Positions 5,881 through 42,354 of a DNA stretch of 42,354 nt are shown one piece after another. The position numbers and the translations under genes were made by a program. How positions within the stretch are numbered: the first letter of the stretch is position 1; the number at the start of each line of letters is the position of its first letter. Below the pieces are notes generated by a model, which was given only the letters and a program-made list of their open reading frames with translations, was not told the DNA's origin and ran no database searches. Source of the stretch: Ignavibacteria bacterium (lineage in GTDB: Bacteria; Bacteroidota; Ignavibacteria; Kapaibacteriales; Kapaibacteriaceae); assembly GCA_013204605.1 (NCBI GenBank), contig JABMNI010000036.1, positions 1-42,354 on the forward strand, given 5' to 3'.

Positions 5881-5931
5881 GACCGGGTCAAATCGACCGG
5901 GTCAATTTGACCCGGTCGATTTGTCCCGGTC
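5881..5931. repeat. 51-bp near-perfect palindrome built from repeated GACCGGGTCAA units
   Basis: Two GACCGGGTCAA units at 5881-5905 are followed by two inverted copies at 5907-5931. The inner arms 5892-5905 and 5907-5920 match perfectly over 14 bp around a one-base centre. The outer arms extend the stem to about 25 bp with one mismatch. The stop codon of the SBBP/T9SS gene (TGA, 5930-5932) overlaps its edge. It lies 31 bases before purC, and both genes are on the minus strand. It could form a strong mRNA hairpin that protects the upstream transcript or limits read-through. There is no T run, so it is not a classical intrinsic terminator. Confidence 0.85.
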
Positions 5932-7916: not shown

Positions 7917-7962
7917 CCCGCAAAGTACAAAACATTACGTTGGGGATATATTGCGAGTTGTT

Positions 7963-10177: not shown

Positions 10178-10186
10178 GTTCTTACT
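10127..10186. repeat. 15-bp tandem repeat across a stop/start junction
   Basis: Four units of the type TCTCACGTTTCTCAT (plus strand) start at 10127, 10142, 10157 and 10172. The first two are identical and the last two diverged. On the coding strand the unit reads as five codons (RNVRM), so it stays in frame. It contains the stop of the gene at 10182 and candidate GTG and ATG starts of the gene ending at 9155. Confidence 0.85.
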
Positions 10187-11240
10187 CTTTCCATTTCATT
10201 TCTGTTTTCACCGAACCATTTTTTGCACGTGCAACAACAACACACACACCTCGTGGTGCATCCAATAAAGTTTTGGAAATGTGTCTGCCGAACAAGTCAT
10301 ACACTCCAATAATTTCATCGTCAGCAGCACTGATCCCATCTTCCAATACAGATGTTGTTCCAACCACAGTTCTCTTTGTGCCAACTACCAAATCATCAAT
10401 CCACATTGTTTGTGCAACCGGCGATCCATCTCCGATATACGGCACCACCAAAAACTGATTGAACGCCAAAGATGGTTGCATAGCAGTTCGCATTTCCACA
10501 TCTGATTTATCAATCAACAAAACATCATCGTACCAATATCGCACAATTCCATCATTCACACCCTTACCGTTTGCAATGGTATTCAACTGAAAGTAGGCTT
10601 CAATTTTATGCCAATCAGATTTATACCGTGGTCCCGCTTCGTCGGCAAACCAAACTCCTGCAGCGCGCCACTGCTTACCATTGCGCCACTCAGTGCCGGA
10701 ATTGTAACAATCTGTTGTGTACCCATCTATAGTTCCGTTGCATCCGCACGTTGATCGGTCTTGCGTGGTTTGCGAAACATCTTGCTTTACCACCGACACA
10801 TTAATGTTGCGTCCGTCCTGCAACGCCAAAACCGGCACGCCTTCATTATGCTCGATGTACGTTGTTAAATGCGTCCACGCCGGACCCACATACTTATCAT
10901 CGGCATTGGTCGTAAAGCTAAACTCATGCGGATGGTACGGCTTGTTCGATCCCGTCCAATTCTCCGAATACCGCACATAGTACCGCAGGTACACCGAGGT
11001 GGAAGGAGTAAACTGCCGACGCATTGCTTTTAGGGGGCTAGGTGTTAGCGCCCCTTTTGCAAAGTTGCACGCCAAGCTGGCAGCGCCTTCAAACTTCACG
11101 CTACTGTCAACACCAGCCACGTTGAAATCATACCAACCGCGTTGCAGCAAATTAGGATCGTCAAAACGTTCCACGAAAAGTGTGTCGGCACAGGCAGCCG
11201 TATGAACAAGAAACAATCCAACGATTATTTTCAGCCACAT
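10182..11240 (-). CDS. Secreted lectin-fold protein (polysaccharide-lyase-like) with T9SS-type tail
   Basis: This is a 352-residue protein with a short signal peptide (MWLKIIVGLFLVHTAACA). A beta-sandwich of about residues 20-290 has the look of concanavalin-A-like or family-14-like polysaccharide lyase domains (FDDPNLLQRGWYDF, VYLRYYVRYSENW, DWHKIEAYFQLNT, VRYWYDDVLLID, MWIDDLVVG). A CGC ... DCYNSG stretch near residue 165 may form a disulfide. The tail (about residue 305 onward, IIGVYDLFGRHISKTLLDAP) resembles a T9SS sorting domain ending in a basic segment. Catalytic residues cannot be assigned safely, so carbohydrate binding without cleavage is possible. The ATG at 11240 is the likely start. 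Confidence 0.65.
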   Translation of the reverse strand: MWLKIIVGLFLVHTAACADTLFVERFDDPNLLQRGWYDFNVAGVDSSVKFEGAASLACNFAKGALTPSPLKAMRRQFTPSTSVYLRYYVRYSENWTGSNKPYHPHEFSFTTNADDKYVGPAWTHLTTYIEHNEGVPVLALQDGRNINVSVVKQDVSQTTQDRSTCGCNGTIDGYTTDCYNSGTEWRNGKQWRAAGVWFADEAGPRYKSDWHKIEAYFQLNTIANGKGVNDGIVRYWYDDVLLIDKSDVEMRTAMQPSLAFNQFLVVPYIGDGSPVAQTMWIDDLVVGTKRTVVGTTSVLEDGISAADDEIIGVYDLFGRHISKTLLDAPRGVCVVVARAKNGSVKTEMKWKE

Positions 11241-24281: not shown

Positions 24282-26363
24282 ATGAAACAATTTTACATTT
24301 TGACCAGCATCATTTTAACAATGATCGCATTGAAAACATCGGATGCGATGGCGCAGCCAAGATGGGATTGGGCCAAGCCCCTTGATGGATCTGGCTACGT
24401 AGAAGCGAGGTCGATATCGTGGTCACCATTTGGCAATCTGTTTGTTTCGGGTGTATTTAATGACACACTTAATATTGGTGGTCAAAAAATCCCTTCGATC
24501 GGTAATTACGACATCTTTACAGCTCTGATGTCCGATAAAGGAGCGTTTAAAAACTCTAATGGAGTTGGTGGCCCTGACGTAGATGATAATAAGTCATCTG
24601 CTTACGACAACAAAGGCAACTACTACGTTTGCGGAAATTTCGTTGAAAACGTTCAAGTGGGAATCTCATATTTCGAATCGAAAGAGCCGTTTGTTACCGA
24701 CTTGTTTCTTGCAAAGTTCAATAAGAATGGAGTGCAAGAGTGGGCTTGGGCCGACGGATCAGTTCTGAACGATGATGAAGTACCAATGGTGGCTGTAGAT
24801 AGCCTTGGCTCGATATACATGGCTGGTTCGTTTGGTGGAATTATCGAGTTTGGTGATAAGAAAGTAACTAGCTCAGGCAAGCTTGACGTGTATGTCGTAA
24901 AAATTTCATCGGCGGGTGCAATTACCTGGTTGCAAAGAGCCGGTGGTATCGAAAACGATGTAGTAAAATCTATTTCTGTGAGTCCCAACGGCGACCGAAT
25001 CTACCTGACCGGTACCTTTATGAAGACGGCAAATTTTGGAGGGCAAAGCCTTCAAGCCTTCTTTTCAAAACCAGACTTTTTCATTCAGTGCTTGAACGCC
25101 AATGGAGTGACGCAGTGGGCAAAACGTTTTGGAAATCCGGAAGACGACGCCAACATTTACGCTACGTGTGATAAGGATGGAAAACTTTTGGTAACAGGTG
25201 AGATGAAACTCACAATGACCTTCGATCAAACGAGCTTAGTTGCTAACGGCCAGCAAGAGTCTGACATGTTTGTTTGCCGAATGGCCAAGGATGGGACTAT
25301 CGAACTGCTCAAAGGTTTTGGTGGCGTATTTACTGAAGTAGGCCTGGGTATTGTTGGCGATGTGCGTGGCGGAATATTTGTAACCGGCTACTTTACGGAA
25401 ACCGGTAGTTTTGGTGGTACGGTTGTTAGCTCTGTAGGTGGAAGAGACGGGTTTATTGCGAAGATTACATCGGCGGGAATATTGGAATGGGTAAGATCTT
25501 TTGGAGGCCCTTACACGGACGAAGGTAGAGCCGTAGCCGTAAGCCCAGACAACATTCCCTTCATTACCGGAGTGTTTGAAACCGAAGCATACTTCGGCCC
25601 GATTACGTTAAAGGGTGAGTTCTTCACCAAATCCTTTGTTGCCTCCATCGAGTGTGGTCCAAACACCGCCGTTACCCCCGCCTCCCCAATCAACATTTGC
25701 GAGGGTCAAGACGAAGAAATTATTGCGGTAGGGGGCTATCCAGCATACGCTTGGTATGTAGATAAGGCGGAGGTTGCAGGGGCTACCAGAAACCGGTTTA
25801 TGTTAGACAATCTTTCTATAGGAACACATGCTGTTTATGTTCGAATTCGTGACTTTTACGATTGCTCACAAAATTCCGATACGTTAACTGTGGTTGTTCG
25901 CGCAGGTCTAGCCAAACCAACAATATTTAAAGACAACAACAACCTTGTTTGTTCTGAAAACAATGTCACGTATCAATGGTATCGCGAAGGAAACAAAATC
26001 ACCGCGGCTACTGAAAAGGTTATTCCTATCGTGGGTGAAGGTCTGTACCGTGTTCTTATTTCAGATACCACTGGTTGCAGACGCTGGTCGGATAACTTTT
26101 TGGTTGGTACTACCGATGTTTTCGAACCAGGATCAAACGATCACGGAATTAGCGTGTATCCGAATCCGGTTAACGACATTTTAACGATTGCTGGTCTCGG
26201 CAACGCAACAGTTACCATTCTAGATGTTACGGGCAGGACAATGTATTCAAGCCACAATCAATCAGGTTCAGCACGAATTACCATGACCGTTGTTCCGGGA
26301 ACATACGTTGTACGCGTGGACCAAGATGGAAAATCTATGATGACGTTAGTCGCGAAATTTTAA
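24282..26363 (+). CDS. Surface SBBP beta-propeller protein with Ig-like region and T9SS sorting domain
   Basis: This 693-residue protein has a signal peptide (about 1-24, ending SDAMA) and AAAGGA seven bases before the ATG. SBBP blades run to about residue 460 (ISWSPFGNLFVSGVFND, YDNKGNYYVCGNFVEN, VSPNGDRIYLTGTFMKTANF, VSPDNIPFITGVFETEAYF). A cysteine-bearing Ig-like segment follows (NICEGQDEEIIAVGGYPAYA, SENNVTYQWYREGN). It ends with a good T9SS type A domain (ISVYPNPVNDILTIAGLG ... GTYVVRVDQDG). It is thus secreted and probably surface-bound. It shares its architecture with the protein at 5930-7513. It converges with, and overlaps by 18 bases, the glycosyltransferase gene. Confidence 0.85.
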   Translation: MKQFYILTSIILTMIALKTSDAMAQPRWDWAKPLDGSGYVEARSISWSPFGNLFVSGVFNDTLNIGGQKIPSIGNYDIFTALMSDKGAFKNSNGVGGPDVDDNKSSAYDNKGNYYVCGNFVENVQVGISYFESKEPFVTDLFLAKFNKNGVQEWAWADGSVLNDDEVPMVAVDSLGSIYMAGSFGGIIEFGDKKVTSSGKLDVYVVKISSAGAITWLQRAGGIENDVVKSISVSPNGDRIYLTGTFMKTANFGGQSLQAFFSKPDFFIQCLNANGVTQWAKRFGNPEDDANIYATCDKDGKLLVTGEMKLTMTFDQTSLVANGQQESDMFVCRMAKDGTIELLKGFGGVFTEVGLGIVGDVRGGIFVTGYFTETGSFGGTVVSSVGGRDGFIAKITSAGILEWVRSFGGPYTDEGRAVAVSPDNIPFITGVFETEAYFGPITLKGEFFTKSFVASIECGPNTAVTPASPINICEGQDEEIIAVGGYPAYAWYVDKAEVAGATRNRFMLDNLSIGTHAVYVRIRDFYDCSQNSDTLTVVVRAGLAKPTIFKDNNNLVCSENNVTYQWYREGNKITAATEKVIPIVGEGLYRVLISDTTGCRRWSDNFLVGTTDVFEPGSNDHGISVYPNPVNDILTIAGLGNATVTILDVTGRTMYSSHNQSGSARITMTVVPGTYVVRVDQDGKSMMTLVAKF

Positions 26364-30435: not shown

Positions 30436-31084
30436 CGGCTAGCATAACAACGCATTGAGTGTCGTACTTTGGATGAGAACCGATGCTCACTCCAATCAAG
30501 TTGAGTTGTGGATTTAGTAAACTTTCGCGGTGTCCACGATCGGGTGTGTTTTCATCAACAATAAAGGCGGCCACAATTCGCGCCGCCGTTGTCTGGCCAT
30601 ACGTAATGCATTCCGAAATTGTTGAATACCAACCAAGATCAGCAGCCCGAGTGGCGGGGTTGGAATTATCGGAACCTATGTGACCCAGTATTCCCATGTT
30701 TTCACCGTCTTTCACGTGCCTCATCGACGCCTTCACAAGTCCACTATCCAGCGCAAACAATGGCAAAGCTTGTTGCGTTTCTAACCGCGCTATTGCTTCG
30801 ATCCCGGCTTTCTCTAAGTTTTTTTTGTTTGAAACGAACGACTTCCAGAACGTGACGTATTTGTTTACTTCAGGAATGAATCCGCTAGGATTAGCACGCA
30901 ATTCATTAATAATTCGAGCTACTTCTGCACTAGTTTCGATGGACGGCTGCTGCGCAGATGTAGCGAGTACAACGCCAGCCAACGCTTCGGTCTTGGCAAA
31001 ATGCGTGATGCCGATTAGTAAGAACAGGACCGACAGAAGCATGCTGCCAAATGGAATTAGCTTGTCTCGCACGTAGTTCGCCAA
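30428..31084 (-). CDS. Exported CAP/SCP-domain protein
   Basis: The protein has an N-terminal hydrophobic helix (about residues 12-35, SMLLSVLFLLIGITHF). This is either a signal anchor or a cleaved signal peptide, since ...AKTEALAG follows. A CAP (cysteine-rich secretory protein) domain covers about residues 50-218. Typical elements are EVARIINELRANPSGFIPEV, LVKASMRHVKDGENMGILGHIGSDN, ISECITYG, GHRESLLNPQLNLIGVSI and a C-terminal hydrophobic strand. Acidic and His residues fit the CAP cavity. The assumed TTG start at 31084 has no good ribosome-binding site; GTG at 31072 or ATG at 31042 are alternatives. CAP proteins bind sterols, lipids or peptides; the role here is unknown. Confidence 0.75.
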   Translation of the reverse strand: MANYVRDKLIPFGSMLLSVLFLLIGITHFAKTEALAGVVLATSAQQPSIETSAEVARIINELRANPSGFIPEVNKYVTFWKSFVSNKKNLEKAGIEAIARLETQQALPLFALDSGLVKASMRHVKDGENMGILGHIGSDNSNPATRAADLGWYSTISECITYGQTTAARIVAAFIVDENTPDRGHRESLLNPQLNLIGVSIGSHPKYDTQCVVMLAAH

Positions 31085-31146
31085 TTGAATAAAGAAAAAT
31101 TATTTCGTTCAGGTAATGTCAGAAAACTTCGATCAAAAAAATAGGT

Positions 31147-31608
31147 TTAGTCTGAAAAAATCTGCGAACAAATTTTTGTCAGTGACTTCGCCTCGGGCCC
31201 TTTGAGTTTTTTCCGAACATCTTGTTCAAATCTCTGCATAATTGGTGTTAGCTTGGAAAGAAGGTCGCGCCCCTTAGGGGTTATAATGGTAACCGACAAC
31301 CTAGCATCTAACGTACTTTTTGTTCGCTTTGCAAAGCCAGCGTTTACCAGTCTGTCAATCAGCCTAGTAACATCTGGAGCTGTTTGAATCATTCGAGCTA
31401 TAATCTCGCAACGCGGATGACCCTCCGGATACACTCCGTTCAAAATCCGTAACACGTTGTATTGAGTAGATGTGATGTCAAATTCCTCACACGCCTGCTG
31501 CATCTTTGTGTTCAAATAGTCGGCGGCTACTAAGATGCTTAACATGGCCTCTTGGTATTCAGATGAAAACGTAGTCTGTTTGATACGTTCGTTTAACGTT
31601 GTGCTCAT
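31147..31608 (-). CDS. MarR-family transcriptional regulator
   Basis: This 153-residue winged-helix protein shows the MarR pattern. A dimerisation helix (EYQEAMLSILVAADYLNTKM) and the DNA-binding domain (ITSTQYNVLRILNGV, CEIIARMIQTAPDVTRLIDRL, AGFAKRTKSTLDARLSVTIIT) are followed by a final helix (LLSKLTPIMQRFEQDVRKKL). The wing carries D-x-R (LDARLS). It is expected to repress a promoter in response to a ligand. A palindrome sits just upstream of its own start (31629-31642), pointing to autoregulation. It is between prfA and the CAP-domain gene on the same strand. Confidence 0.88.
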   Translation of the reverse strand: MSTTLNERIKQTTFSSEYQEAMLSILVAADYLNTKMQQACEEFDITSTQYNVLRILNGVYPEGHPRCEIIARMIQTAPDVTRLIDRLVNAGFAKRTKSTLDARLSVTIITPKGRDLLSKLTPIMQRFEQDVRKKLKGPEAKSLTKICSQIFSD

Positions 31609-31628
31609 AACGGGAATATACGAATAAG

Positions 31629-31642
31629 TGTGTTACAACACA
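31629..31642. promoter_or_regulatory. Palindromic candidate MarR operator
   Basis: TGTGTTACAACACA is a palindrome with six-base arms and a two-base centre. It is centred about 28 bases before the MarR ATG and between it and the prfA stop. Its position and symmetry suit binding by a MarR dimer. Confidence 0.5.
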
Positions 31643-31657
31643 TTACTGCAGGGCACG

Positions 31658-32725
31658 CTATTGCAGAGCGTCTGCACTTTCCGCCATGCGTAATGCTGTG
31701 ATTAATGGTTCTAAATCTCCCTCAACAACTTGCTGTAGCGGATAATTCTTGACGTCGCCCTCGAGTCTGTGATCAGTAACTCTGTTTTGCGGCCAATTAT
31801 AGGTACGAATTTTTTCAGATCTATCGCCTGATTTTACCATGGTTTTCCGCACGCCTGCAATGGCTGCTTGTTGCTTAGCTAACTCCATTTCATACAGTCT
31901 TGCGCGGAGTACCTTCATAGCCTTGTCTTTGTTTTTAAGCTGTGAGCGTTCGTCCTGACACTGCACCACAATTCCCGAAGGAATGTGAACGAGTCTGACG
32001 GCAGTCTCCACCTTATTTACATTTTGACCCCCCTTGCCCCCTGACCTAAAAATATCTACCCTAAGATCGCCATCGTTGATTTGCACATCAACTTCTTCAG
32101 CCTCGGGCAATACGGCAACAGTTGCGGCGGATGTGTGTACGCGTCCCTGCGATTCTGTATCTGGAACTCGTTGCACGCGGTGGACACCACTTTCGAACTT
32201 CATGATACCAAAGGCTTCGTCGCCATTGAGTTCAAAAACTATTTCCTTATAGCCGCCTCGCTCGCTTTCAGTAAAGTCGATCGTATCTACTGCCCAGCCC
32301 CTGTTCTCTGCAAAACGATGGTACATTCTATGAAGATCACCAACAAACAGTGCTGCTTCATCGCCGCCGGTACCGGCACGGATTTCCACAATGCAGCTTT
32401 TCAAATCGTTGGGGTCTTTCGGAATCAACAGCACTCGCAACCTGGCATCCAGCTCCGTGAGTTGCTCTTCCAACGCGTGTTTTTCCTCGTACGCCAGATC
32501 CCTAAAATCTGCCGAAATAGCCGTGTCTGAAATCAGTGCTTCGTTTTCGCGCATTGAATTCTTAAGGGCAATGTAATCAGTGCAGGCTGTAGCAATTGGC
32601 TGCAGCTGCTTAAATTCACGCGATGCATCGCGTAGTAATCGAGGATTGTTCACAACATCAGGGTCGTTTAGACTCTGTTCGATGGCTGCAAATCGGTCGA
32701 GTATAGATTGTAATCGTTCTTCCAC
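31658..32725 (-). CDS. prfA: Peptide chain release factor 1
   Basis: RF1 recognises UAA and UAG and triggers hydrolysis on the ribosome. I use the GTG at 32725, which starts [19 protein letters not shown] like other RF1s (355 residues); the next in-frame start at 32761 adds an unrelated 12-residue lead. It carries the domain-2 PxT loop (here PDT in [10 protein letters not shown]), which is the RF1-type codon-recognition tripeptide pattern. The catalytic GGQ is in [14 protein letters not shown]. The C-terminal [17 protein letters not shown] is also present. It precedes the MarR and CAP-domain genes and is divergent from the DUF4397 lipoprotein. Confidence 0.93.
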
Positions 32726-32787
32726 ACCACAAAAATATCGCTTGTTGCAGTACGTTGGCACACAATTGCATTTCAGCTCTTAAATCA

Positions 32788-34749
32788 ATGAAACTTTTTT
32801 ACGCCTTTTTTACGTGTGCTTTGCTGTTTTGGGGCTGCGCGTCCGAGAATCCCAACATCGTAAATCCGCCTCCCGGAAATGCCAACGTTTCAGTTCGGTT
32901 TTTTAATATGGTGCCCGATAATTCAAAACGAGCGCTGGTGTTGGAGTTGGGCCGTGTTACTACCGATGTGGCACCTGGACGCATGTCGTCGACCATCGAT
33001 GCACCATCAGATTCCAGTTTTCTCGAAATCCTCGGAAACGGTACGAGAGAGTACTATTCAACGGAACGGTATAAATTTATCCGTCAGTCTGTTTATGATG
33101 TATTTGCCATTGCCAGTCACGCTAACCCAGAATCTTTCGATACAATTTTTGTTTCCAACGCCAACACTAGCCTCACCACGTTGCCTGTTGCCCAGGTGCG
33201 AGTGGTAAATGTTGTGCCCGACACGTCAATTTCAATAGATGTGCGCCGCGGATGCCCAAACGGTCTTCCGCTCAACAACTTCACAGTGCGTTTTGCTACC
33301 TCATCACTTTATTCCGACTCCGATCCGGGCAACAGTGTTTTTTCAGTGGTCGAGAATAGGGCAGGGGGCTCTGTGTTATTGGGAACATTTGAGTGTCTGC
33401 TGAAGGAGTACATGCCATATTCCATTATTGCATATCGCAATAAAGGAACACCAAAAACTCAGATAATGTTGTTGGAAGAGCAAGACTCAACTCCGAATGC
33501 CGATCGTTCATTTACGCCAATCCTTTCACGCACGGCCGAAGTGCGAGTGGTAAATGTTTCAAATCAGTCAGTGTCGGTGATTCAACAAACATTGAACACA
33601 TCCATAGCAAACAATCTTTCTTCAAATCGAATTTCAGACTACATCGAGCTGCCAACGTGCGAGTCGGAACAGTCAGATATTTTTCAAGTCACGTTTAGCA
33701 ATGGCGATATTGTTGTTGATAGTACGGCACTAATTGTTAGAAAGAAATTCACGGTAGTCTGTGCCGACTCCGGCACTATGGCCGATATGTTGATCGTGGC
33801 ACCTGCGGCAACAATATTCGACACGGATGGCAAGGCAATTGTTCGTGTGGTGAACATGTCAACTACTCGGGGGAACATCGTACTATCTACGGCGGCTAGA
33901 ACCGATAGCGATCAACCATCAAATTTCACCAGCGGCTTTACACTTGCCGATAATGTGTCATACCGCAGCGTTTCTAAGCCCACTGCAATAAAACCTGGCC
34001 AGGTTCCAATTACCATTGCAACTGCTTCGAAACCAACTAAGTTTATTCAAGTATCCAGAGTGGATGTAATTGCCGGACACGACTATTTGTTTGTTGTATC
34101 TGAGCAGAACGGCGAGTTTAGTGTGAGTGTGATTGACGAGACCGAAAGCAACACGGCAGTAACAAAGGCTCAACCAGCGGTACTAACCAGGGTGCTAAAC
34201 GGCTCGCCAACCAATAGCAGTGAAATGTGTAATCTGCACGATGTAATTGTGAATGCTAAACTGTTTTATCGCAATTCACTCACCACAACCGTCCCATCCG
34301 GCAGTGTGAACATCTCCATAGGTGGCGCATCTAAAGTGCTTACGTCCGAATTGAATAAGCGTCTGCTTTGCATCTATGCAGAAGGTGGTAATTCGGCCAA
34401 TATCATTTCCTTTAGTGCCGATCCTCTAGTGCCATCGCAGGGTAAATCGTTACGCAGATTTATCAACGCCACAGCCGATATCAAGCTTATATCAGTAGCC
34501 TTCGATTCGGTTCCAGCACAAAATCCCGATGCAGAACACATAGCGAAAGATATCGCCTACGGAACGTCGTCGGTAGTCTTCGAGCAGCAAACTGTCCGTC
34601 GCGGTTCCATATTTTTTTACGATTCAGACGAGAAGACAAGTTTATTTTCACTACCCATCGACTTTGGCCCACTAGGGAATAACTACTCGCTGATTATCGT
34701 CGGCAGAAAGCAGAGTGGCTACGAAGTGATTGTTACACAAGAGTTCTAA
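32788..34749 (+). CDS. DUF4397-repeat lipoprotein
   Basis: This 653-residue lipoprotein starts at the ATG at 32788. It has a signal peptide and lipobox (LLFWGC, Cys about residue 16), and is then Asn/Pro-rich. Repeated modules resemble DUF4397: NVSVRFFNMVPD, AQVRVVNVVPDTSI, AEVRVVNVSNQSVSV and AIVRVVNMSTTRGNI, with a diverged TRVLNGSPTNSSE. The DNA encoding two of these (33196-33213 and 33541-33558) is identical over 18 bases, a sign of recent internal duplication or conversion. Such beta-rich repeats are typical of cell-surface or periplasmic adhesion or scaffold proteins. It is the first gene of the envelope cluster. Confidence 0.75.
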   Translation: MKLFYAFFTCALLFWGCASENPNIVNPPPGNANVSVRFFNMVPDNSKRALVLELGRVTTDVAPGRMSSTIDAPSDSSFLEILGNGTREYYSTERYKFIRQSVYDVFAIASHANPESFDTIFVSNANTSLTTLPVAQVRVVNVVPDTSISIDVRRGCPNGLPLNNFTVRFATSSLYSDSDPGNSVFSVVENRAGGSVLLGTFECLLKEYMPYSIIAYRNKGTPKTQIMLLEEQDSTPNADRSFTPILSRTAEVRVVNVSNQSVSVIQQTLNTSIANNLSSNRISDYIELPTCESEQSDIFQVTFSNGDIVVDSTALIVRKKFTVVCADSGTMADMLIVAPAATIFDTDGKAIVRVVNMSTTRGNIVLSTAARTDSDQPSNFTSGFTLADNVSYRSVSKPTAIKPGQVPITIATASKPTKFIQVSRVDVIAGHDYLFVVSEQNGEFSVSVIDETESNTAVTKAQPAVLTRVLNGSPTNSSEMCNLHDVIVNAKLFYRNSLTTTVPSGSVNISIGGASKVLTSELNKRLLCIYAEGGNSANIISFSADPLVPSQGKSLRRFINATADIKLISVAFDSVPAQNPDAEHIAKDIAYGTSSVVFEQQTVRRGSIFFYDSDEKTSLFSLPIDFGPLGNNYSLIIVGRKQSGYEVIVTQEF

Positions 34750-34781
34750 GGCAAAAGGAAGTGGTATATTTGAGCCTTCTC

Positions 34782-35555
34782 ATGCGTTATACAAATCGTA
34801 CAAATCTTCTTTTGGCGTTCATTTTGAGTGCCTTTTTGGGGTTTTTAGCCAGTTCCTCTGCTGCTGAAAACCTAGGTTTCCCGGCATTCACCTCGGCGCC
34901 GGTAGGATCGATTATTCGAATTCCCGTTTCCGGGACCGTAACATCGACCGGAATCTTAACGATTTCTATCCAGTACACGCCAACCATGATGAGGGTATTG
35001 GGAGTGTACGGTGGACCCTCCTTTGCCTTCCGCTGCGCTGGAAAGTTCAACCCCATTGTAGATTCGTCAGCCGGCAGAACGGGCTTTTACAGCGTGGAAT
35101 GTGGTGCGGTTCAACCAATAGTAAATGGGCCTTTGTTTGAAGTTGAAGTTGAGTTACTTAACGGACCCGACACCTCGGGAGTTATAAGCATCACCCAATT
35201 GGTGGCAAACGATAGCGTAATCGCCGATGCCGAGTTCGTTCCCGGCACGGTGAATGTTGAAGGGGGCAATACGTTACGTCCAAACGAATTTCTCGGAATT
35301 GGCATGGTGTATCCAAATCCAATAGCATCCTCCTTTACCGTTAGCTATGTTGTTGCTACAGCGGGTACTGCAAAGTTCGATTTGTTTTCATCCGGCGGAA
35401 GGTTGGCCTTCGAATTGGGTACTTCAGTTAGTCACAAAGGAGTGAATACTGTTCAATTCACACCCAAACTTTGGGAAATTTCTCAGGGGTCGTTACTACT
35501 CCGAATGGTTACCGAAGATGGTACGTATTTCTATCCCGTAATGGTGGTTAAATAG
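34782..35555 (+). CDS. Cohesin-like domain protein with T9SS sorting tail
   Basis: The signal peptide is at the ATG at 34782 (MRYTNRTNLLLAFILSAFLG); a GTG seven codons before is an alternative. About residues 35-170 form a cohesin-like beta-sandwich: APVGSIIRIPVSGTV, TISIQYTPTMMRV, GPLFEVEVELL, SGVISITQLVANDS. The C-terminal domain, VYPNPIASSFTVSYV ... GGRLAF ... VKs, is a T9SS type A sorting domain (FLGIGMVYPNP start). The protein therefore is predicted to be surface-exported by T9SS. It is 23-33 bases after the DUF4397 gene and 16 before the IgGFc-like gene. Confidence 0.75.
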   Translation: MRYTNRTNLLLAFILSAFLGFLASSSAAENLGFPAFTSAPVGSIIRIPVSGTVTSTGILTISIQYTPTMMRVLGVYGGPSFAFRCAGKFNPIVDSSAGRTGFYSVECGAVQPIVNGPLFEVEVELLNGPDTSGVISITQLVANDSVIADAEFVPGTVNVEGGNTLRPNEFLGIGMVYPNPIASSFTVSYVVATAGTAKFDLFSSGGRLAFELGTSVSHKGVNTVQFTPKLWEISQGSLLLRMVTEDGTYFYPVMVVK

Positions 35556-35571
35556 GAGTTGCGAGCAAACT

Positions 35572-37932
35572 ATGAAGCCCCTTTCCATAATTGTTGCGTT
35601 AATAGTGCTGCTTGTAAACATAAATGTGACGGTTGCACGCGATCCGCAATTCTTGACCAAAAATTCTGAGGGAAAAGAATTTTGGTTGTGCTTTATGAAA
35701 AATTTTCGCGATGGTGCAACAAACGACAGACAAAATGCGCCGACTAATCTGAAGCTACAATTGTTTTTGACGAGCTCGTTCGATGCAAATGTTAAAATTG
35801 AAATTGAAGAGATAAACTATAACAACACCGTTTCAATTAAGGCAAACACAGTAGTAAATGTGCAGCTTCCGCCACGTACGCAGTTGCGCGGTGGCGATAC
35901 TCCCGAGCGGTTGGCAGTGCACGTTACAGCCGATACAGCCATTGCGGTGTACGGATTGAATAGCAGATACCAAACTACCGAGACGTTTTTGGGATTGCCG
36001 GTTAGCGTGCTGGGCACCTCGTACAGGGCAGTTGGTTACACGAAACTTGCCATGGACTTGCTTTCGGCGTTTAGCATTATTGCAACAGAAGATGACACGA
36101 AGATTGAGATCGAGCCAACTACGATGTTGTCTACCGGATTTGGCCCGGGACAGGTTATGAAACTAACGTTACGTAAAGGCGACGTATATACCGTAACGGC
36201 GAAATGGGAATCAATAGGTCCAAGCGATTTGACCGGGTCGAAGATTACAGCGAACAAAAAAATCGCCGTATTCAGCGGACACAACTGTGCATATGTACCA
36301 CCGAAGGTTGACGCTTGTAATCACCTAATCGAACAGCTTCCTCCCATCACTGCGTGGGGTAAGCACTACTACTTGGGAATGTTGCGGGAGAGGTCGAAAT
36401 ACACATATAGAGTTGTGGCATCAGAAGACAACACGCGGGTTTTTGAAGACGCAAAACTAGTTGCCGTTCTTAAGGCTGGCGAGTTTTATGAAAACCTAAA
36501 TGTGAGTAAGCATATTCAAGTAACGGCAGACAAACCAATTCTTGTTGCGCAGTATTCGCAAGGATTCAAGGTTGATAACGTTGGCGATCCAATGATGCTC
36601 TTGGTTAGCCCAACGCAACAGTTTTTAAATGAATATCGATTTGCCACACCGATTAATGGCGACTGGCATCACTACATTAACGTGGTGGCGCCCGTTGGGA
36701 CGATAAATGATATCCGGCTAAACGGTCGTCGGCTCGACTCCAGTCTTTTCAAATCATTCGGTGAAAGCCGCTACGTTATTGCGCAGATCGCAATTCCGTA
36801 CGGCACGCACGTTATTAGAAGTGAAGAGCCATTTGGACTGTATTCGTACGGGTTTGGGTTTCGAAACGATGCGTACGATGGTTATGGAAACATGACGGGT
36901 CAGTCGTTCATCGAACTCAACAAAATGGTCGATTCGTTACCTCCAATGGCTGATGGAAAAATTTCGCGCGACAACTTTTTGGTAACGTTTCGTGATGATA
37001 GAGTAATGGACAAAGGAATGAAGGCCGTAAAAATTCTCACGGCAGAATTTCTTGATGTTGAAGTACCAAAGCTCGAAGAAGGAACGCCGCACTTGAGTGT
37101 GAAAATTAGTCCTGCTGTTGCTGGCCGACAAGGGCGCGTAATTTTTCAAGCTGTAGATGTTGCCGGCAATCAATCAGAGTATACGCTATGCTACATATTC
37201 GATACTCGTTCAGAGCGCATGGTATATTATTTGAGCGAAGGCCGAAATGCTGTATGTGCGTCTGATGCCGCTTGGATTGTTGGAGTGTATGGCGCAGCCG
37301 TGCACGCGTACCATGCCGCCAACTTCACCAATTCTGGAAATCTTGGAAGCAAGGGAACGTTTGGTGAAGCTGAAGGCTTGGGGCTTGGCGTTGGCGCGTT
37401 GATTGGAAGAAGAATTTTACCCGGTGTGATTCTCAACGCTCGCATTCAGATGAATACCATTGGCGGTACATTGTTATCGGCCGATTCTACTAGATCAACC
37501 GTGTACGATGAAGCATCCGGTCAATTCCTTCAGTATTACGAAGGTTCGCTGCTTACCGTAACAGCGCCAATAGTGAAGTTTGGATTATTAGCACAGTGGT
37601 TCCCCGACAGATTTTTCTACGTTGCCGGTGGTGCAAACGTTGCCGTTACACTTGGGTCATCGGTTCAAGTTCAACGAGATATACTAACCCCACCAAACTG
37701 GCAATTTGCAAATGGTACTACACCACTTACGGTTTCTCCAGATAAGTTGACATCGTTAAACACATTCGGATTTGAATTGGTAGGGGGCGTTGGTTTCTCG
37801 TATCCGGTAAGTTTAAACGGATCGGTGTTTTTGGAATCGTTGTACACTCAGCGGCTCGGAGATGTGATAAGCGATGGCGCTTGGCGAATGGGTTCTTTAG
37901 GACTCAACGCCGGTTTTCTTTGGCGATTCTAA
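35572..37932 (+). CDS. IgGFc-binding-like surface domain fused to a C-terminal outer-membrane beta-barrel
   Basis: This 786-residue protein has a signal peptide (about 1-22). The N-terminal half (about 30-430) resembles the IgGFc-binding domain (GKEFWLCFMKNF, TAIAVYGLNSRYQTTETFLGLP, IAVFSGHNCAYVPP, EQLPPITAWGKHYYLGM). A linker near 440-540 has a Big/CHU-like beta region. Residues about 560-786 look like an outer-membrane barrel of alternating strands (GLGLGVGALIGRRILPGV, LLAQWFPDRFFYVAGGANV, LNTFGFELVGGVGFSYPV) ending with aromatic F. There is no obvious T9SS tail, so the barrel likely anchors the domain at the surface. An AGGAG overlaps the previous stop. Confidence 0.7.
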   Translation: MKPLSIIVALIVLLVNINVTVARDPQFLTKNSEGKEFWLCFMKNFRDGATNDRQNAPTNLKLQLFLTSSFDANVKIEIEEINYNNTVSIKANTVVNVQLPPRTQLRGGDTPERLAVHVTADTAIAVYGLNSRYQTTETFLGLPVSVLGTSYRAVGYTKLAMDLLSAFSIIATEDDTKIEIEPTTMLSTGFGPGQVMKLTLRKGDVYTVTAKWESIGPSDLTGSKITANKKIAVFSGHNCAYVPPKVDACNHLIEQLPPITAWGKHYYLGMLRERSKYTYRVVASEDNTRVFEDAKLVAVLKAGEFYENLNVSKHIQVTADKPILVAQYSQGFKVDNVGDPMMLLVSPTQQFLNEYRFATPINGDWHHYINVVAPVGTINDIRLNGRRLDSSLFKSFGESRYVIAQIAIPYGTHVIRSEEPFGLYSYGFGFRNDAYDGYGNMTGQSFIELNKMVDSLPPMADGKISRDNFLVTFRDDRVMDKGMKAVKILTAEFLDVEVPKLEEGTPHLSVKISPAVAGRQGRVIFQAVDVAGNQSEYTLCYIFDTRSERMVYYLSEGRNAVCASDAAWIVGVYGAAVHAYHAANFTNSGNLGSKGTFGEAEGLGLGVGALIGRRILPGVILNARIQMNTIGGTLLSADSTRSTVYDEASGQFLQYYEGSLLTVTAPIVKFGLLAQWFPDRFFYVAGGANVAVTLGSSVQVQRDILTPPNWQFANGTTPLTVSPDKLTSLNTFGFELVGGVGFSYPVSLNGSVFLESLYTQRLGDVISDGAWRMGSLGLNAGFLWRF

Positions 37933-37949
37933 ATTAAAAAGGTCTCGAC

Positions 37950-38609
37950 GTGCAGTTTTTAGCCGTCATAGAAAAGGACATTCGTTCCGAACTTCGCACT
38001 CGGTATGGTCTGACCGCTCTCGCACTCTTCGTTGTAACATCTGTGGCACTGGTTGCTTTTTCGGCGGCTGATGAGCCCCTTCCCAAACCTATTGCTGCCG
38101 GTGTACTTTGGGTAATAATGTTCTTCACAGCGTTAACAGGAATGGCTCGGGCGTTTGTGCATGAAGAAGAACGCGGAACGTGGTTGTTTTTGAGAATCAG
38201 TACGCGTCCGACAGATATTTACATGGGGAAGCTGGCAGTTAACACCGTGCTAAGCGTAACAACGAATTGTTTAACGGCATTGCTGTTTGTAATATTTCTC
38301 ACAGGTTTCACGGTGGGGAGTCCGTGGATACTCGTGCTTTGTGTAGCCGTAGGCAGCATTGGTCTGGCAGCTGTGCTCACCATCGTTTCAGCAATCGTAG
38401 CAAAAGCCGGATCGAAAAATTCGCTGCTGCCCGTACTTTCATTTCCACTTTTAGTGCCGTTACTTTTGCCCGGTACCAATGCCCTGCTAATGTCGGTAGG
38501 CGGATTTGAATTCACCGATGTACTTGCCGATCTTTCATTAATGCTTGCGTATTCCGGAATAGTTTCGGTTGTAGCATGGATAATTTTCCCAATAATCTGG
38601 TGCGATTAA
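37950..38609 (+). CDS. ccmB: CcmB-type heme exporter (ABC permease)
   Basis: CcmB is the membrane permease of the CcmAB transporter, which works with CcmC in the release of haem-loaded CcmE during cytochrome c maturation. The 219-residue protein has six membrane helices. The family-typical start is QFLAVIEKDIRSELRTRY, followed by ALTGMARAFVHEEERGTWLFLRIS and SLLPVLSFPLLVPLLL. The GTG start at 37950 has an AAAGG upstream. The gene stands alone: no ccmA, ccmC or ccmE is adjacent, and it follows the IgGFc-barrel gene by 17 bases and precedes the phosphoesterase gene. Its partners must lie elsewhere or be absent. Confidence 0.85.
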   Translation: MQFLAVIEKDIRSELRTRYGLTALALFVVTSVALVAFSAADEPLPKPIAAGVLWVIMFFTALTGMARAFVHEEERGTWLFLRISTRPTDIYMGKLAVNTVLSVTTNCLTALLFVIFLTGFTVGSPWILVLCVAVGSIGLAAVLTIVSAIVAKAGSKNSLLPVLSFPLLVPLLLPGTNALLMSVGGFEFTDVLADLSLMLAYSGIVSVVAWIIFPIIWCD

Positions 38610-38617
38610 AAAGCACC

Positions 38618-39553
38618 ATGCTATATGCGCTACTCATAGTGTGCGCAAATGGATGTTCCTCCTTCTATGCAATTCCCAAATACTCGGGAAGGATTCCCGA
38701 GGGCAAATCGCCGCTGAAAATTGCTGTAATTGGAGACCTTCAACAAACTTCGTTTTTGGAGACGTGGCGCGAGCGTAACAACCGTCCACAAATACGGCAA
38801 ATACAACTTCTTGCAGCAACAAATCCCGACCTTGTTGTTACGCTGGGCGATAATGTGTTTTGGGGTTCTAGCGATGATGACTGGGCATATTTCGACCGAC
38901 TACTGATTCCGCTGCGCAAACGAGGAATTCCAATAATGCCAGTGCTGGGCAACCATGAGTATTTTGGCAGCATCAGCGATATGTACAATCAAATTCAACA
39001 ACGATTTCCACTTTACAAAAGCCTGTGGTATTACCAGATTGTCGATTCAATTGGGTTTGTAATGATCAACACTAACTTCAGCGATCTTGGTGGAAAGGTA
39101 ATGGCGGAGCAGCGCGGCTGGTTTGTGCAGACAATGCGAAAGCTCGACCGTAATACCGCCGTTCAGTACATTGTGGTTTGCGGACATCACCCACCGTTCA
39201 CCAATAGTGTTATTGTGGACGACGATGAAATCTTGCAGTCATACTTTTTGCCTATCTATATGCAAAGTGTTAAGGGGGCCATCTGGTTCAGTGGGCACTG
39301 TCACGCGTATGAGCGGTTTTCAAAAGGTGGAAAACAATTTATAGTGTCGGGCGGCGGCGGTGGACCCCGTCAGAACTTAGTTACCGGTATTTTAGAACAG
39401 CACAAAGACCAGTACGCAGGATCAGATATACGACCAATGCATTATTGCACTCTTCAGCGAACTGCTTCGGCGCTTGTAATGGAAATGGTACCTTTACAGT
39501 ACCGTGAAGAATATCTTGCAGATACATTACGCATTGAGTTACAAGTAGAATGA
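38618..39553 (+). CDS. Calcineurin-like metallophosphoesterase lipoprotein
   Basis: I start at the ATG at 38618 (lipobox near CANGC), eight bases after the ccmB stop; an earlier ATG at 38576 would overlap ccmB. The 311-residue protein has the metallophosphoesterase set: AVIGDLQ, LGDNVFWGSS, GNHEYF, CGHHPPF and SGHCHAYERF. These provide the two-metal ligands (Asp, Asn and His). The order and Tyr-Glu-Arg after the last His resemble purple acid phosphatase-like enzymes. It is predicted to be anchored to the envelope as a phosphomonoesterase or phosphodiesterase. Its stop overlaps the next gene in ATGA. Confidence 0.8.
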   Translation: MLYALLIVCANGCSSFYAIPKYSGRIPEGKSPLKIAVIGDLQQTSFLETWRERNNRPQIRQIQLLAATNPDLVVTLGDNVFWGSSDDDWAYFDRLLIPLRKRGIPIMPVLGNHEYFGSISDMYNQIQQRFPLYKSLWYYQIVDSIGFVMINTNFSDLGGKVMAEQRGWFVQTMRKLDRNTAVQYIVVCGHHPPFTNSVIVDDDEILQSYFLPIYMQSVKGAIWFSGHCHAYERFSKGGKQFIVSGGGGGPRQNLVTGILEQHKDQYAGSDIRPMHYCTLQRTASALVMEMVPLQYREEYLADTLRIELQVE

Positions 39554-40311
39554 GCCACCACATCACCAAGATGATGATTGTAATGTCGATTTTTTTTGCA
39601 CTGTGCACAGCTGCGTATGCTTCAGATTCGACCGAAGTTGCAACTGAGCAGGCGCCTGTCGACCCAAATGCATACGATGAAACGCACTACGTGATGTCGG
39701 CATACCCATCATCAAACGTCAGTGTTAGAGGTTCACTCGGTTTGAGTTTAACACTCCTTCCACAACCGCTTACTGAATATCCAACGGCGGCACCAATGGC
39801 CGATGTCAGGCTAAAGTTCGCATTTCCACTTGGGATTAATGGCACAATGAGACTTGCAAGTAACATTGCAACCTCACTTGCGCAAGGTGGCGGTTTTTGG
39901 GGCGTAAATATTGGTCGATTGTCAGTGGGCGCAGGCTACTCGGTTGCATTTGTGTATGGAAATCTCACGTACGTTGATGGATTTAGAACTACTCAACAAC
40001 GTTGGATAAATTATCCAATGGTTACGGCATCGTGGAGTTTTCCTGGTGCAGCACTAACGGCAAAACTCGAAGCTGAGTACACCACGGCAGTTGAATCAAC
40101 TATCGAGGACCAACCAACAAAGTCAACCAAGAACACATTAACGGGTGGCGCATTAACAGTTTCAATTGAACAGCCGTTTTTCAAAACCACGCACGTGATA
40201 ATTGGTGTTACATTTCAATATTCTTCGGATCCGTACCAAGCTTGGTTCTTGTATAATCAGTTTAAGGATAGACTATTCTCGAGTGAGTTTTTTGTAGGAT
40301 TTATTTTATGA
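39550..40311 (+). CDS. Predicted outer-membrane beta-barrel protein
   Basis: This 253-residue protein with a signal peptide (about 1-24, ending YASDS) starts in an ATGA overlap with the phosphoesterase gene. The rest is alternating short strands (RGSLGLSLTLLPQPL, VRLKFAFPLGINGTMRLASN, LSVGAGYSVAFVYGNL, HVIIGVTFQYSS) ending FFVGFIL, consistent with a small barrel. The family is not recognised. It overlaps the next gene in ATGA, so the two are expected to be made together. It may serve as a partner or porin for the neighbouring lipoproteins. Confidence 0.6.
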   Translation: MSHHITKMMIVMSIFFALCTAAYASDSTEVATEQAPVDPNAYDETHYVMSAYPSSNVSVRGSLGLSLTLLPQPLTEYPTAAPMADVRLKFAFPLGINGTMRLASNIATSLAQGGGFWGVNIGRLSVGAGYSVAFVYGNLTYVDGFRTTQQRWINYPMVTASWSFPGAALTAKLEAEYTTAVESTIEDQPTKSTKNTLTGGALTVSIEQPFFKTTHVIIGVTFQYSSDPYQAWFLYNQFKDRLFSSEFFVGFIL

Positions 40312-41606
40312 TGCAAGCCACAAAGCCCCTTGCAAAAATTGCGCTGGTCATAGTTTTACTATTCGGACTGCATAGCTGTGTGCTGGACTTCGAGCCGGTG
40401 GAAACTCCAGCGGTTGATTACAACGTGATTGCGGGTACGCGCGCCTTGGATGCCGCGGCAAAAAAAGTGATTATCGACGGCGTGTATGAAGTTGATGGAG
40501 CGTCGAAAGTAAAAATATTCGGCAATGTTATGACGGTGAAGTTGGCTGAAAATGGCGACGTGAACATGTACACAACCGTAGGTGTAGTGTATTTCCGTAT
40601 GCGAGGAGGAATGCGCTCCGATACCGCAGTGTTTGCTGGTTATTGGCGTGGAGTGCAGGGTCCGCAAACGGGTGCCGCATACTTTGTAGTTCTTCCCGAC
40701 GAAGGAGGTACTCAACTTTCAAGCGGCGTAGGAACCAAAGACATAACAATTCGTGCCTTGATGAACGTGCCGAACGGCCAACCGGATTCATTGATACTCC
40801 GGCGGAAGCAGGATTTAAAGGATGACTCGAAGGGTTTCCAAATAATAGCGCATCGTGGCGGTGGCCGTAATTCAGAGCGACTGGGAGTTTCAGAGAATAC
40901 AATTGAAATGGTAAAGCTTGCAACGCACCTTGGTGCTACGGGAGTGGAGATAGATGTACGGAGATCGATGGATGGAATACCAATTGTGTTTCATGACCCT
41001 ACATTTACGCCACGAACAGTCAGGGGTGCATACATAATTGGTGCAATTGAAAATTACACGTATAAGCAAATGACGGAGCTAGCCATTCTAATCAATGGCG
41101 AAAAAATCCCCACGTTCGAAGCCTTGCTAAAGGCAGCCATCGATGAAACATCGTTGACCTTTGTATGGGTAGACATGAAGGATGAAACTATCACAGATAA
41201 GGTGTTGAAGATAATTAAAGATGCAACTGACTACGCTGCAATAAAGAATCGAGATATTAGGATTGTTTACGGCATTCCAACTCAGGAAGTTTTGGATGCA
41301 TATTATCAGAGTCCGCTGTACGGAACGGTCGAAACTCTATGCGAACTTGGAGCGGCAGATGCAATTAGGATCAAAGCCGCAGTATTTGGTCAGAGATTCA
41401 CCGAGGGCGTGCAACGAGCCACCGTGGAGCCTCTTCGCGATGCCGGGATGTCGGCCTACGTTTGGACGTTGGATGATGAAGATTTTATATCAACATACTT
41501 GCAGGAACGGTACACAGGGAAGGGGCTATTGTACAACGGGATTCTTACAAATTATCCTACGCTATTGGCATCGAAGTTTTACGCTGCGAAGTACAAACCA
41601 AAATGA
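40308..41606 (+). CDS. Glycerophosphodiester phosphodiesterase-family lipoprotein
   Basis: This 432-residue lipoprotein (lipobox LHSC, about residue 25) has an N-terminal beta domain of unknown type (about 40-170). A GDPD TIM-barrel then covers about 180-420 with all key elements: IAHRGG, SENTIEM, GVEIDVRRSMDG, VFHDPTF, YVWTLDD near the end. This predicts cleavage of glycerophosphodiesters to glycerol-3-phosphate and an alcohol, at the envelope. It is linked by ATGA overlaps to a barrel gene on each side. Ancillary N-terminal domain may bind a ligand. Substrate could be phospholipid-derived deacylated head groups. Confidence 0.82.
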   Translation: MMQATKPLAKIALVIVLLFGLHSCVLDFEPVETPAVDYNVIAGTRALDAAAKKVIIDGVYEVDGASKVKIFGNVMTVKLAENGDVNMYTTVGVVYFRMRGGMRSDTAVFAGYWRGVQGPQTGAAYFVVLPDEGGTQLSSGVGTKDITIRALMNVPNGQPDSLILRRKQDLKDDSKGFQIIAHRGGGRNSERLGVSENTIEMVKLATHLGATGVEIDVRRSMDGIPIVFHDPTFTPRTVRGAYIIGAIENYTYKQMTELAILINGEKIPTFEALLKAAIDETSLTFVWVDMKDETITDKVLKIIKDATDYAAIKNRDIRIVYGIPTQEVLDAYYQSPLYGTVETLCELGAADAIRIKAAVFGQRFTEGVQRATVEPLRDAGMSAYVWTLDDEDFISTYLQERYTGKGLLYNGILTNYPTLLASKFYAAKYKPK

Positions 41607-42247
41607 GAATTGCACTTATCATAATGCTTACCGTAGTTTTTGTAGCAGGCGTTGCGCAAAGTCAGCCCGATACTGGTACAAAATATACCGTAGAAGCTTT
41701 GTTAACAGTAGGATTGAAATATACTCGGTTTGTAAATCCAACCACTGAGTTTACTGACAGGCAAATTTTTCCAGGCGTTACTGTCAAAGCACGTTTGCAT
41801 TGGTTTCCGAATCATTTATTAGGGATCGGAATTCAAAGTGGGTACGAGTTATTCGCAATTGAAAAGCACATTATTTTAGATGATGAGGGTGTACCTAGTG
41901 TAATTGAAATGCAACTTTCCGGAGTCCCAATTCACGCAGTATTTGAAATGCGACCGAATAATTTCAGATTGGGTGTAGGGTTAGGAATCTACTTGTTAGA
42001 GTCAAAAATTTCTTTTAACGGGTCGATAACGAAAAGCTCCGATCTAGCATTTGGTGTGTCGGCATTAGTCGGCTATGAGTGGCATATTTTTGAAGACTTG
42101 CATGTCAGCCCCGAAATCGGATTATACATGATTAGCGATCGAAGCATCGTCTCTGTTTCACCTTCGATCACACTTCGGTACAGGCTCACTCCCTCCGCCT
42201 CTTCATATAGGGGATACATTCGCTATTTCCTTACCTCCGTTGATTGA
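41603..42247 (+). CDS. Predicted outer-membrane beta-barrel protein
   Basis: This 214-residue protein starts in ATGA overlap with the GDPD gene and has a signal peptide (MRIALIIMLTVVFVAGVAQS). Strands follow (YTVEALLTVGLKYTRFV, VKARLHWFPNHLLGIGIQSG, NFRLGVGLGIYLLES, LAFGVSALVGYEWHIFE) with a C-terminal SPSITLRYRL ... YIRYFLTSVD. It has the profile of an OmpA/PorT-like small barrel. The exact family is uncertain. It converges with, and overlaps by 17 bases, the fragment at 42231-42354. Confidence 0.65.
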   Translation: MRIALIIMLTVVFVAGVAQSQPDTGTKYTVEALLTVGLKYTRFVNPTTEFTDRQIFPGVTVKARLHWFPNHLLGIGIQSGYELFAIEKHIILDDEGVPSVIEMQLSGVPIHAVFEMRPNNFRLGVGLGIYLLESKISFNGSITKSSDLAFGVSALVGYEWHIFEDLHVSPEIGLYMISDRSIVSVSPSITLRYRLTPSASSYRGYIRYFLTSVD

Positions 42248-42354
42248 TCTTCGCCCAGATTTGCTTTGTACATTTCGAAACAGGACCATCGGCGTATTCC
42301 ACCACAGACACGCCCTCCATCTGCGCTTCAGTAACCTATGTATCGTACGGGATC
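42231..42354 (-). pseudogene. ParA/MinD-like ATPase C-terminus fragment with an in-frame TAG
   Basis: Minus-strand reading from the window edge gives IPYDT, a TAG (42336-42338), then VTEAQMEGVSVVEYADGPVS and a tail to a TAA (42231-42233). The pattern I-P-x-x-x-x-V-x-E-A-x-x-x-G-x-S-V-x-E-Y resembles the end of ParA-type partition ATPases. In that alignment the TAG stands for a Tyr-like residue, one base from TAC/TAT. It is either a nonsense mutation, a sequence error at the window edge, or a coincidental frame. I cannot see the rest of the gene. Confidence 0.45.

Follow-up and report, generated by a model that had tools for sequence, protein, structure and literature searches.

A lipid-anchored glycerophosphodiesterase and two small predicted barrels are kept as a gene module, often joined by a metallophosphoesterase, in Bacteroidota and Ignavibacteria-like lineages

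The window analysed here is the entire 42,354-bp contig JABMNI010000036.1 of an Ignavibacteria bacterium (assembly GCA_013204605.1, a genome of 2.69 Mb in 86 contigs), in which four genes follow one another on the + strand at 38600-42247 in the order metallophosphoesterase (MPE) lipoprotein, barrel 1, glycerophosphodiester phosphodiesterase (GDPD) lipoprotein and barrel 2. The MPE gene (38600..39553) encodes a DxQ-type calcineurin-like protein (PF00149, 1.3e-14) and barrel 1 (39550..40311) a protein of 253 aa with a ten-strand model and no Pfam family. The GDPD gene (40308..41606) encodes 432 aa, in which the PF03009 match (1.8e-19, residues 182-417) is preceded by a beta-rich N-terminal domain without a Pfam match (residues ~45-172, 40440..40823; strands at 58-169 in the model), and barrel 2 (41603..42247) is a 214-aa OMP_b-brl-like protein (PF13505, 0.0014) whose profile match covers 41603-42187. 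Each gene overlaps the next by an ATGA of 4 nt on the + strand, at 39550..39553 (MPE/barrel 1), 40308..40311 (barrel 1/GDPD) and 41603..41606 (GDPD/barrel 2), confirming the start-stop overlaps that an earlier note on this DNA had described. Barrel 1, the long GDPD and barrel 2 are hereafter called the triad.

A scan of genome contigs with the GDPD alignment returned 211 relatives, the best 80 of which were analysed as loci, mainly from Kapabacteria, Ignavibacteria, Chitinophagaceae, Spirosoma and its kin, Arcicella and Bacteroidales metagenome-assembled genomes (MAGs). Barrel 1 lies within three genes of the GDPD in at least 74 of these 80 loci and barrel 2 in at least 69, both being lower bounds because the longest-open-reading-frame caller missed barrel 1 in L127 and L128 and barrel 2 in L127 and L182; translated searches locate the missed barrel 1 of L127 and L128 at the same places, and L145, L173 and L202 were flagged as lying near a locus edge. 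The commonest gene order is barrel 1-GDPD-barrel 2 (30 loci), found also with the MPE after it (21 loci) or before it (6 loci), besides barrel 1-barrel 2-GDPD (6 loci) and rarer or incomplete arrangements (17 loci). In other genomes, same-strand barrel 1-GDPD neighbours overlap in 56 of 66 cases (exactly 4 nt in 44) and GDPD-barrel 2 pairs in 44 of 62 (exactly 4 nt in 10), counts that use the first in-frame start, so that longer overlaps may be over-called.

Searches at E<=0.001 for each barrel and at E<=1e-59 for the long GDPD picked out one and the same set of 15 among the 23 genomes of the window's family, and in a 296-genome sample of the phylum separate profile searches placed barrel 1 (E<=1e-54), the long GDPD (E<=1e-134) and barrel 2 (E<=1e-29) in an identical 22 genomes from 11 family codes, with weak barrel 2 matches (1e-4 to 5e-4) in five further genomes. 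Pairwise distances of the components correlate at 0.845-0.91, as those of co-inherited genes would, in a comparison made without an unlinked control gene. Diverged triads set in other surroundings occur at eight loci (L113-L120) of seven genomes, and the stretches retrieved around them contain no MPE gene (the caller-missed barrels of L114 and L120 being taken from the family-wide barrel searches); these triads are extra copies in G002, G008, G013 and G016 and the sole triad in G005, G006 and G007. The MPE, for its part, is retained next to a CcmB-like gene without an adjacent triad in L121, L122 and L124. Therefore, the triad is a unit by itself and is what is inherited, and the MPE is a frequent, optional and separable partner.

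The partnership is nevertheless a recurrent one. A DxQ-type MPE lies within five genes of the GDPD in 38 of the 80 loci, upstream, downstream or divergent (the coarse DxQ filter admitted one purple-acid-type paralogue, L130_16, which leaves the locus count unaffected as L130 has a true MPE too). An orthologous MPE (E<=1e-67) is present in 19 of the 23 genomes of the window's family, the remaining matches being distant paralogues or fragments. In the 296-genome sample, the MPE profile (E<=1e-30) matches 21 genomes, 13 of them in common with the 22 triad genomes (Fisher p 5e-12, uncorrected for ancestry), and in 11 of these 13 the MPE adjoins the triad, lying on another contig in G005 and G226. 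On a GDPD tree of 87 rows, the position of the MPE needs 11 changes by a quick method that leaves 28 of 84 inner forks open: it is upstream in two separate clades, downstream in a clade of Spirosoma and Chitinophagaceae, and divergent in three single loci. Such repeated linkage in changing positions is good evidence of a functional tie between the MPE and the triad. The earlier note's view of one functional unit in the envelope is upheld to this extent, the triad occupying the same 22 genomes and the phosphoesterase being linked to it far beyond the window; its expectation of fixed ratios was over-stated, given that, of the 296 genomes, 8 carry an MPE but no triad and 9 a triad but no MPE, and the overlapping starts suggest translational coupling rather than stoichiometry.

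The GDPD of the window scores 71.3 bits against PF03009, above the curated cut-off of 23.6. The catalytic motif of GDPDs consists of HR, EN, ExD, H and K residues, and in an alignment of 48 of the 80 loci plus the window E196, N197, E214, D216, H229 and K291 are present in all 49 sequences, H182 in 48 and R183 in 47, the lipid-anchor residue Cys24 (codon 40377-40379) being likewise found in 49 of 49. In the window's GDPD these catalytic residues are all intact, with glycerophosphodiester hydrolysis as the predicted reaction. The structural model (pLDDT 91.5, pTM 0.90) joins the beta-rich N-domain, of about 125 residues, to a C-terminal GDPD TIM barrel, and in VIA-align it matches the GDPDs 3qvq and 2pz0 (Z 25.6).

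The MPE scores 55.5 bits against PF00149 (curated cut-off 21.5) and carries the metal-ligand motifs D, D, NH, H and HxH, with DxQ at the first motif, where calcineurin-like phosphoesterases usually have DxH. Eight residues (D40, Q42, D78, N112, H113, H190, H227 and H229, numbered from 38618) are invariant in the 28 aligned MPEs, an alignment built from 27 of 36 listed sequences plus the window after 4 more of a cluster of 40 had been excluded as over-long or of the purple-acid type. Purple acid phosphatases, which have a tyrosine metal ligand in the sequence GDxxY, are the best sequence matches of the MPE in the PDB; the residue at that tyrosine position is F in the window's MPE, and Y occurs there in 0 of the 28 aligned sequences. 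The MPE gene probably starts at GTG 38600 (or at ATG 38576, which gives the longest open reading frame), so that it overlaps the CcmB-like gene, whose end is at 38609, whereas ATG 38618 is disfavoured because it would leave a 12-residue signal without a basic residue, and relatives begin MVRL... or MGRL.... Its sequence marks the window's MPE as a lipoprotein (Cys codon 38654-38656), and the same holds for most of the window's family, where the calls come from a crude signal-peptide rule that misfires on some cytoplasmic-looking MPEs. Six aligned Spirosoma-type MPEs have only 10-14 residues before the first metal motif and therefore no room for a signal peptide, so that the description of this protein in the earlier note as a metallophosphoesterase lipoprotein holds for the window and mainly for its family and fails for these six sequences.

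Several relatives encode a second phosphoesterase on the contig that carries the MPE, at a distance of several kb (L103 1570-2445, L108 1070-1951, L122 13714-14625, L124 8554-9462 and L134 14738-15709); it is of a GDWGTGG purple-acid type, and its N-terminus is hydrophobic.

For barrel 1, an AlphaFold2 model gives a ten-strand barrel (pLDDT 89.4, pTM 0.80), and it was for this barrel that the fold proposed in the earlier note was recovered by structure prediction. The N-terminus is hydrophobic, with a signal peptide by inspection, and outer-membrane barrels are the best matches of the model in VIA-align (Z 15-17.5), OpcA leading at 17.5 with pOmpT at 17.1; we regard barrel 1 as a predicted outer-membrane beta-barrel. 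No Pfam match at E<=0.01 was obtained for any of the 49 members of its alignment (48 of 74 plus the window), in all of which P71, E76, P82, G137, E207 and W232 are invariant. A conserved outward face was considered, as loops L1 and L5 are well conserved (mean Kullback-Leibler divergence 2.06 and 2.55), but it is given no weight, since strands s8 and s10 are similar in this respect (2.24 and 2.32). Barrel 2 reaches 19.3 bits against PF13505 (OMP_b-brl) in the window, below the cut-off of 28.7, and 22 of the 43 aligned members (42 of 69 plus the window, the over-long L139 and the partial L161 being dropped from 44) match this family at E<=0.01. Homology to the barrel 2 family stops at ~42187, and the last ~19 residues are unlike those of relatives, which end near ...RYDLxRY; this divergent tail (42187-42247), at most 170 bp from the contig end, is either a real divergence or an assembly effect. 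The outer-membrane phospholipase OMPLA appeared among many weak Foldseek matches, and PagL was matched weakly by 3 of the 43 barrel 2 proteins. A profile comparison of the two barrels gave 75% probability over 62 columns, which fits a general barrel similarity, and a duplication is not claimed.

With respect to the side of the membrane on which the enzymes act, a study of surface export in Bacteroidetes gives CxK(D/E)2X, SDDDD and SDDFE as signals following the lipid-anchor cysteine (PMC5080379). The window's GDPD reads C-V-L-D-F-E from Cys24, near both CxK(D/E)2X and SDDFE, and in the GDPD alignment D or E stands at +4 in 33 of 49 sequences and at +6 in 22, with K or R at +3 in 18. Given this resemblance to the export signals, a surface position of the GDPD is favoured. 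An acid at +2 to +6 is found in 1 of the 12 family MPEs called lipoproteins by the crude rule, and the scarcity of acids at these positions suggests that the MPE lipoproteins of the family face the periplasm.

Taken together, it is reasonable to suppose, with somewhat more confidence than doubt, that these genes specify an obligate three-gene outer-membrane module in which a lipid-anchored GDPD is made with two small barrels, and to which is added an often-linked MPE acting on the product. Most likely the two barrels would hold the GDPD in the outer membrane or present it across the membrane, and the GDPD would hydrolyse a glycerophosphodiester-like bond, such as that of head-groups released from phospholipids, of lyso-phospholipids or of glycerophosphate-bearing glycans. 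Where present, the MPE would probably dephosphorylate the GDPD product further in, in the periplasm here and apparently in the cytoplasm in Spirosoma-type genomes. A physical complex, a surface-exposed GDPD, the kind of substrate and the sequence in which the two enzymes act are what we infer from these pieces. A more specific version, to which we give little credence, is a relay that works from the outside inward, independently of TonB, in Bacteroidota and Kapabacteria-like bacteria: a surface GDPD would cleave glycerophosphodiesters or lyso-lipid head-groups, the two barrels would both hold the GDPD and let its product through to the inner side, and there the phosphate would be stripped by a DxQ phosphatase.

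Several points weigh against the module as we picture it. Barrels of 8-10 strands usually lack a wide pore, which makes a channel role doubtful. The C-terminal residue of barrel 1 is Leu, not an aromatic one, and the barrel 1 model is matched also by the soluble barrels Rv2717c and nitrobindin (Z ~14). The assembly of the GDPD with the barrels is proposed here from the genes and from single-protein models, and the GDPDs of L142 and L158 lack the H and/or the R of the HR motif. Because the loci used to build the barrel profiles were themselves located by way of the GDPD, linked copies are favoured, and the co-occurrence counts carry no correction for ancestry. Finally, the export-signal rule derives from three other species (PMC5080379).

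The earlier note had read the four genes as a phosphate- or glycerol-scavenging unit, induced by phosphate starvation, in which the GDPD would free glycerol-3-phosphate, the MPE would free phosphate and the barrels would pass substrates or products. Such an order of enzymes is chemically sensible and the far-reaching link of the MPE to the triad would suit it, but 9 of the 22 triad genomes have no MPE, and an export signal fits none of the six Spirosoma-type MPEs. PstB is encoded in the window's genome, on another contig, which would allow phosphate use; across genomes it is found in 15 of 22 with the triad, and is thus missing from 7, against 22 of 25 without it. Glycerol kinase (TIGR01311) and the GlpT-type transporter (TIGR00881) were searched for in 47 genomes, 22 with the triad and a comparison set of 25 without it that was not drawn at random. 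The window's genome matches neither family at E<=1e-60, a result that argues against the scavenging of glycerol by this organism. Among the triad genomes, 4 of 22 exceed the glycerol kinase cut-off and 5 of 22 match at E<=1e-60; the corresponding counts for the comparison set are 0 and 3 of 25. The GlpT cut-off is exceeded in 0 of the 47 genomes, with matches at E<=1e-60 in 3 of the 22 and 0 of the 25. The four genomes above the kinase cut-off and the three with a sub-cut-off GlpT-like match thus all carry the triad, and a glycerol link is conceivable in those four, but glycerol scavenging as a general function was rejected on these searches. The Pho box suggested as a check returned 0 matches in the window for the E. 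coli-type sequence, where 3.2 would be expected by chance, a result subject to the reservation that this box may not apply in the phylum. Of 181 proteins of 130-520 aa flanking the core by two genes on each side, the 150 scanned match 156 families, and among the 25 commonest there is no phosphate-import family and no shared pathway that stands out; CcmB recurs among them through the Kapabacteria-type loci. In a Flavobacterium phosphate-starvation study, the single mention of "glycerophosphodiester" is in the reference list, and "metallophosph-" is absent (PMC8115612). On this evidence we consider scavenging an unlikely function.

It is conceivable, if still on the improbable side, that the role is not nutritional and that the genes serve the maintenance of outer-membrane lipids or surface glycans, the GDPD being a lyso-phospholipase D or a glycan trimmer and the MPE removing exposed phosphate. 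The anchoring of the GDPD beside barrels would suit such a role, and the lysophosphatidylglycerol (LPG) phospholipase D of S. aureus is among its structural neighbours (Z 22.1), alongside many GDPDs. The family model for that activity, NF053857, is matched by 13 of the 49 GDPDs at E<=1e-5; the window's protein, however, reaches 20.8 bits where the cut-off is 450, and 48 of 49 are matched by the general GDPD model, whose best E-value is also the better one. Among the families shown for the flanks, catabolic genes do not recur around the GDPD, in keeping with maintenance, but neither do lipid-metabolism genes. That unrelated envelope genes came to share an operon by chance in this contig is very improbable: the genes do belong to a longer run on one strand that takes in CcmB-like and IgGFc-binding genes as well, but the identical sets of 22 genomes and the overlaps conserved in changing surroundings refute it for the triad, the link of the MPE being weaker than the triad's own. 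We accordingly retain the outer-membrane module as the preferred reading.

The genes around the four provide their context. The CcmB-like ABC permease gene (37950..38609, + strand; PF03379, 2.4e-19) lies outside the module, and the same-strand run begins at 32755, with genes for a DUF4397 protein, a 264-aa protein, an IgGFc_binding protein and the CcmB-like permease separated by gaps of 11-17 nt. Given these small gaps, the four genes are probably the tail of a longer transcript and not a free-standing operon. A search for sigma-70-like promoters in 31000-42354 gave 14 matches against 18.6 in shuffles, that is, no signal. The IgGFc_binding protein (35572-37932; PF17517, 1e-73), whose last ~200 residues resemble an outer-membrane barrel by eye, precedes the CcmB-like gene in several relatives. 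Elsewhere in the window, an SBBP beta-propeller protein (24282-26363) carries a type IX secretion sorting tail (PF18962, 2.7e-8), and four of ten further proteins (5930-7513, 7951-9051, 9155-10177 and 10182-11240) have no Pfam match at E<=0.001, their N-termini appearing export-signal-like by eye.

Among the relatives, L155, L177, L184 and L197, all Bacteroidales-type, have a gene for a LytTR-type regulator and one for a membrane protein, possibly a sensor kinase, a few genes upstream of the triad. The GDPDs of L137 (binned as Desulfobulbaceae) and L160 (Alphaproteobacteria) are nearly identical to those of Ignavibacteria L136 and Bacteroidales L149, and the two contigs are probably mis-binned MAG contigs.

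A description of the triad module was not found in the open-licence literature searched, and the module is apparently undescribed so far, although each of its parts resembles something known. The GDPD is like GlpQ/UgpQ-type phosphodiesterases (PF03009), including lipoprotein GDPDs, in domain, fold and catalytic residues, and differs from them in its additional N-domain, its constant cysteine and its constant pair of barrel genes. The MPE shares its metal-ligand motifs with purple acid phosphatases and other ACP5-like proteins (PF00149), but departs from them in its first motif and at the tyrosine position. The model of barrel 1 is like OpcA (Z 17.5) and OmpT/Pla (15.3-17.1) in strand number and fold, but identity in these alignments is 7-12%, and its invariant residues do not suggest an omptin active site. 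A parallel in organization is with SusCD/PusCD-type pairs of Bacteroidota, in which an outer-membrane barrel and a (probably) surface lipoprotein are likewise made together; in contrast to those systems, the barrels here are of 253 and 214 aa, no TonB-dependent receptor or SusD match in Pfam was obtained for any of the four proteins, and the lipoprotein is itself an enzyme. The module is kept as a block, sparsely but widely, in Bacteroidota and Ignavibacteria-like lineages, including cultivated Spirosoma, Segetibacter, Ferruginibacter and Arcicella, and it may explain phospholipid head-group processing at the outer membrane in some of these bacteria. A lipid-anchored diesterase tied to two dedicated barrels offers a testable lipoprotein-barrel assembly outside the known nutrient receptors and would, should the relay be true, add another type of lipoprotein-barrel machine to SusCD and BtuBG.

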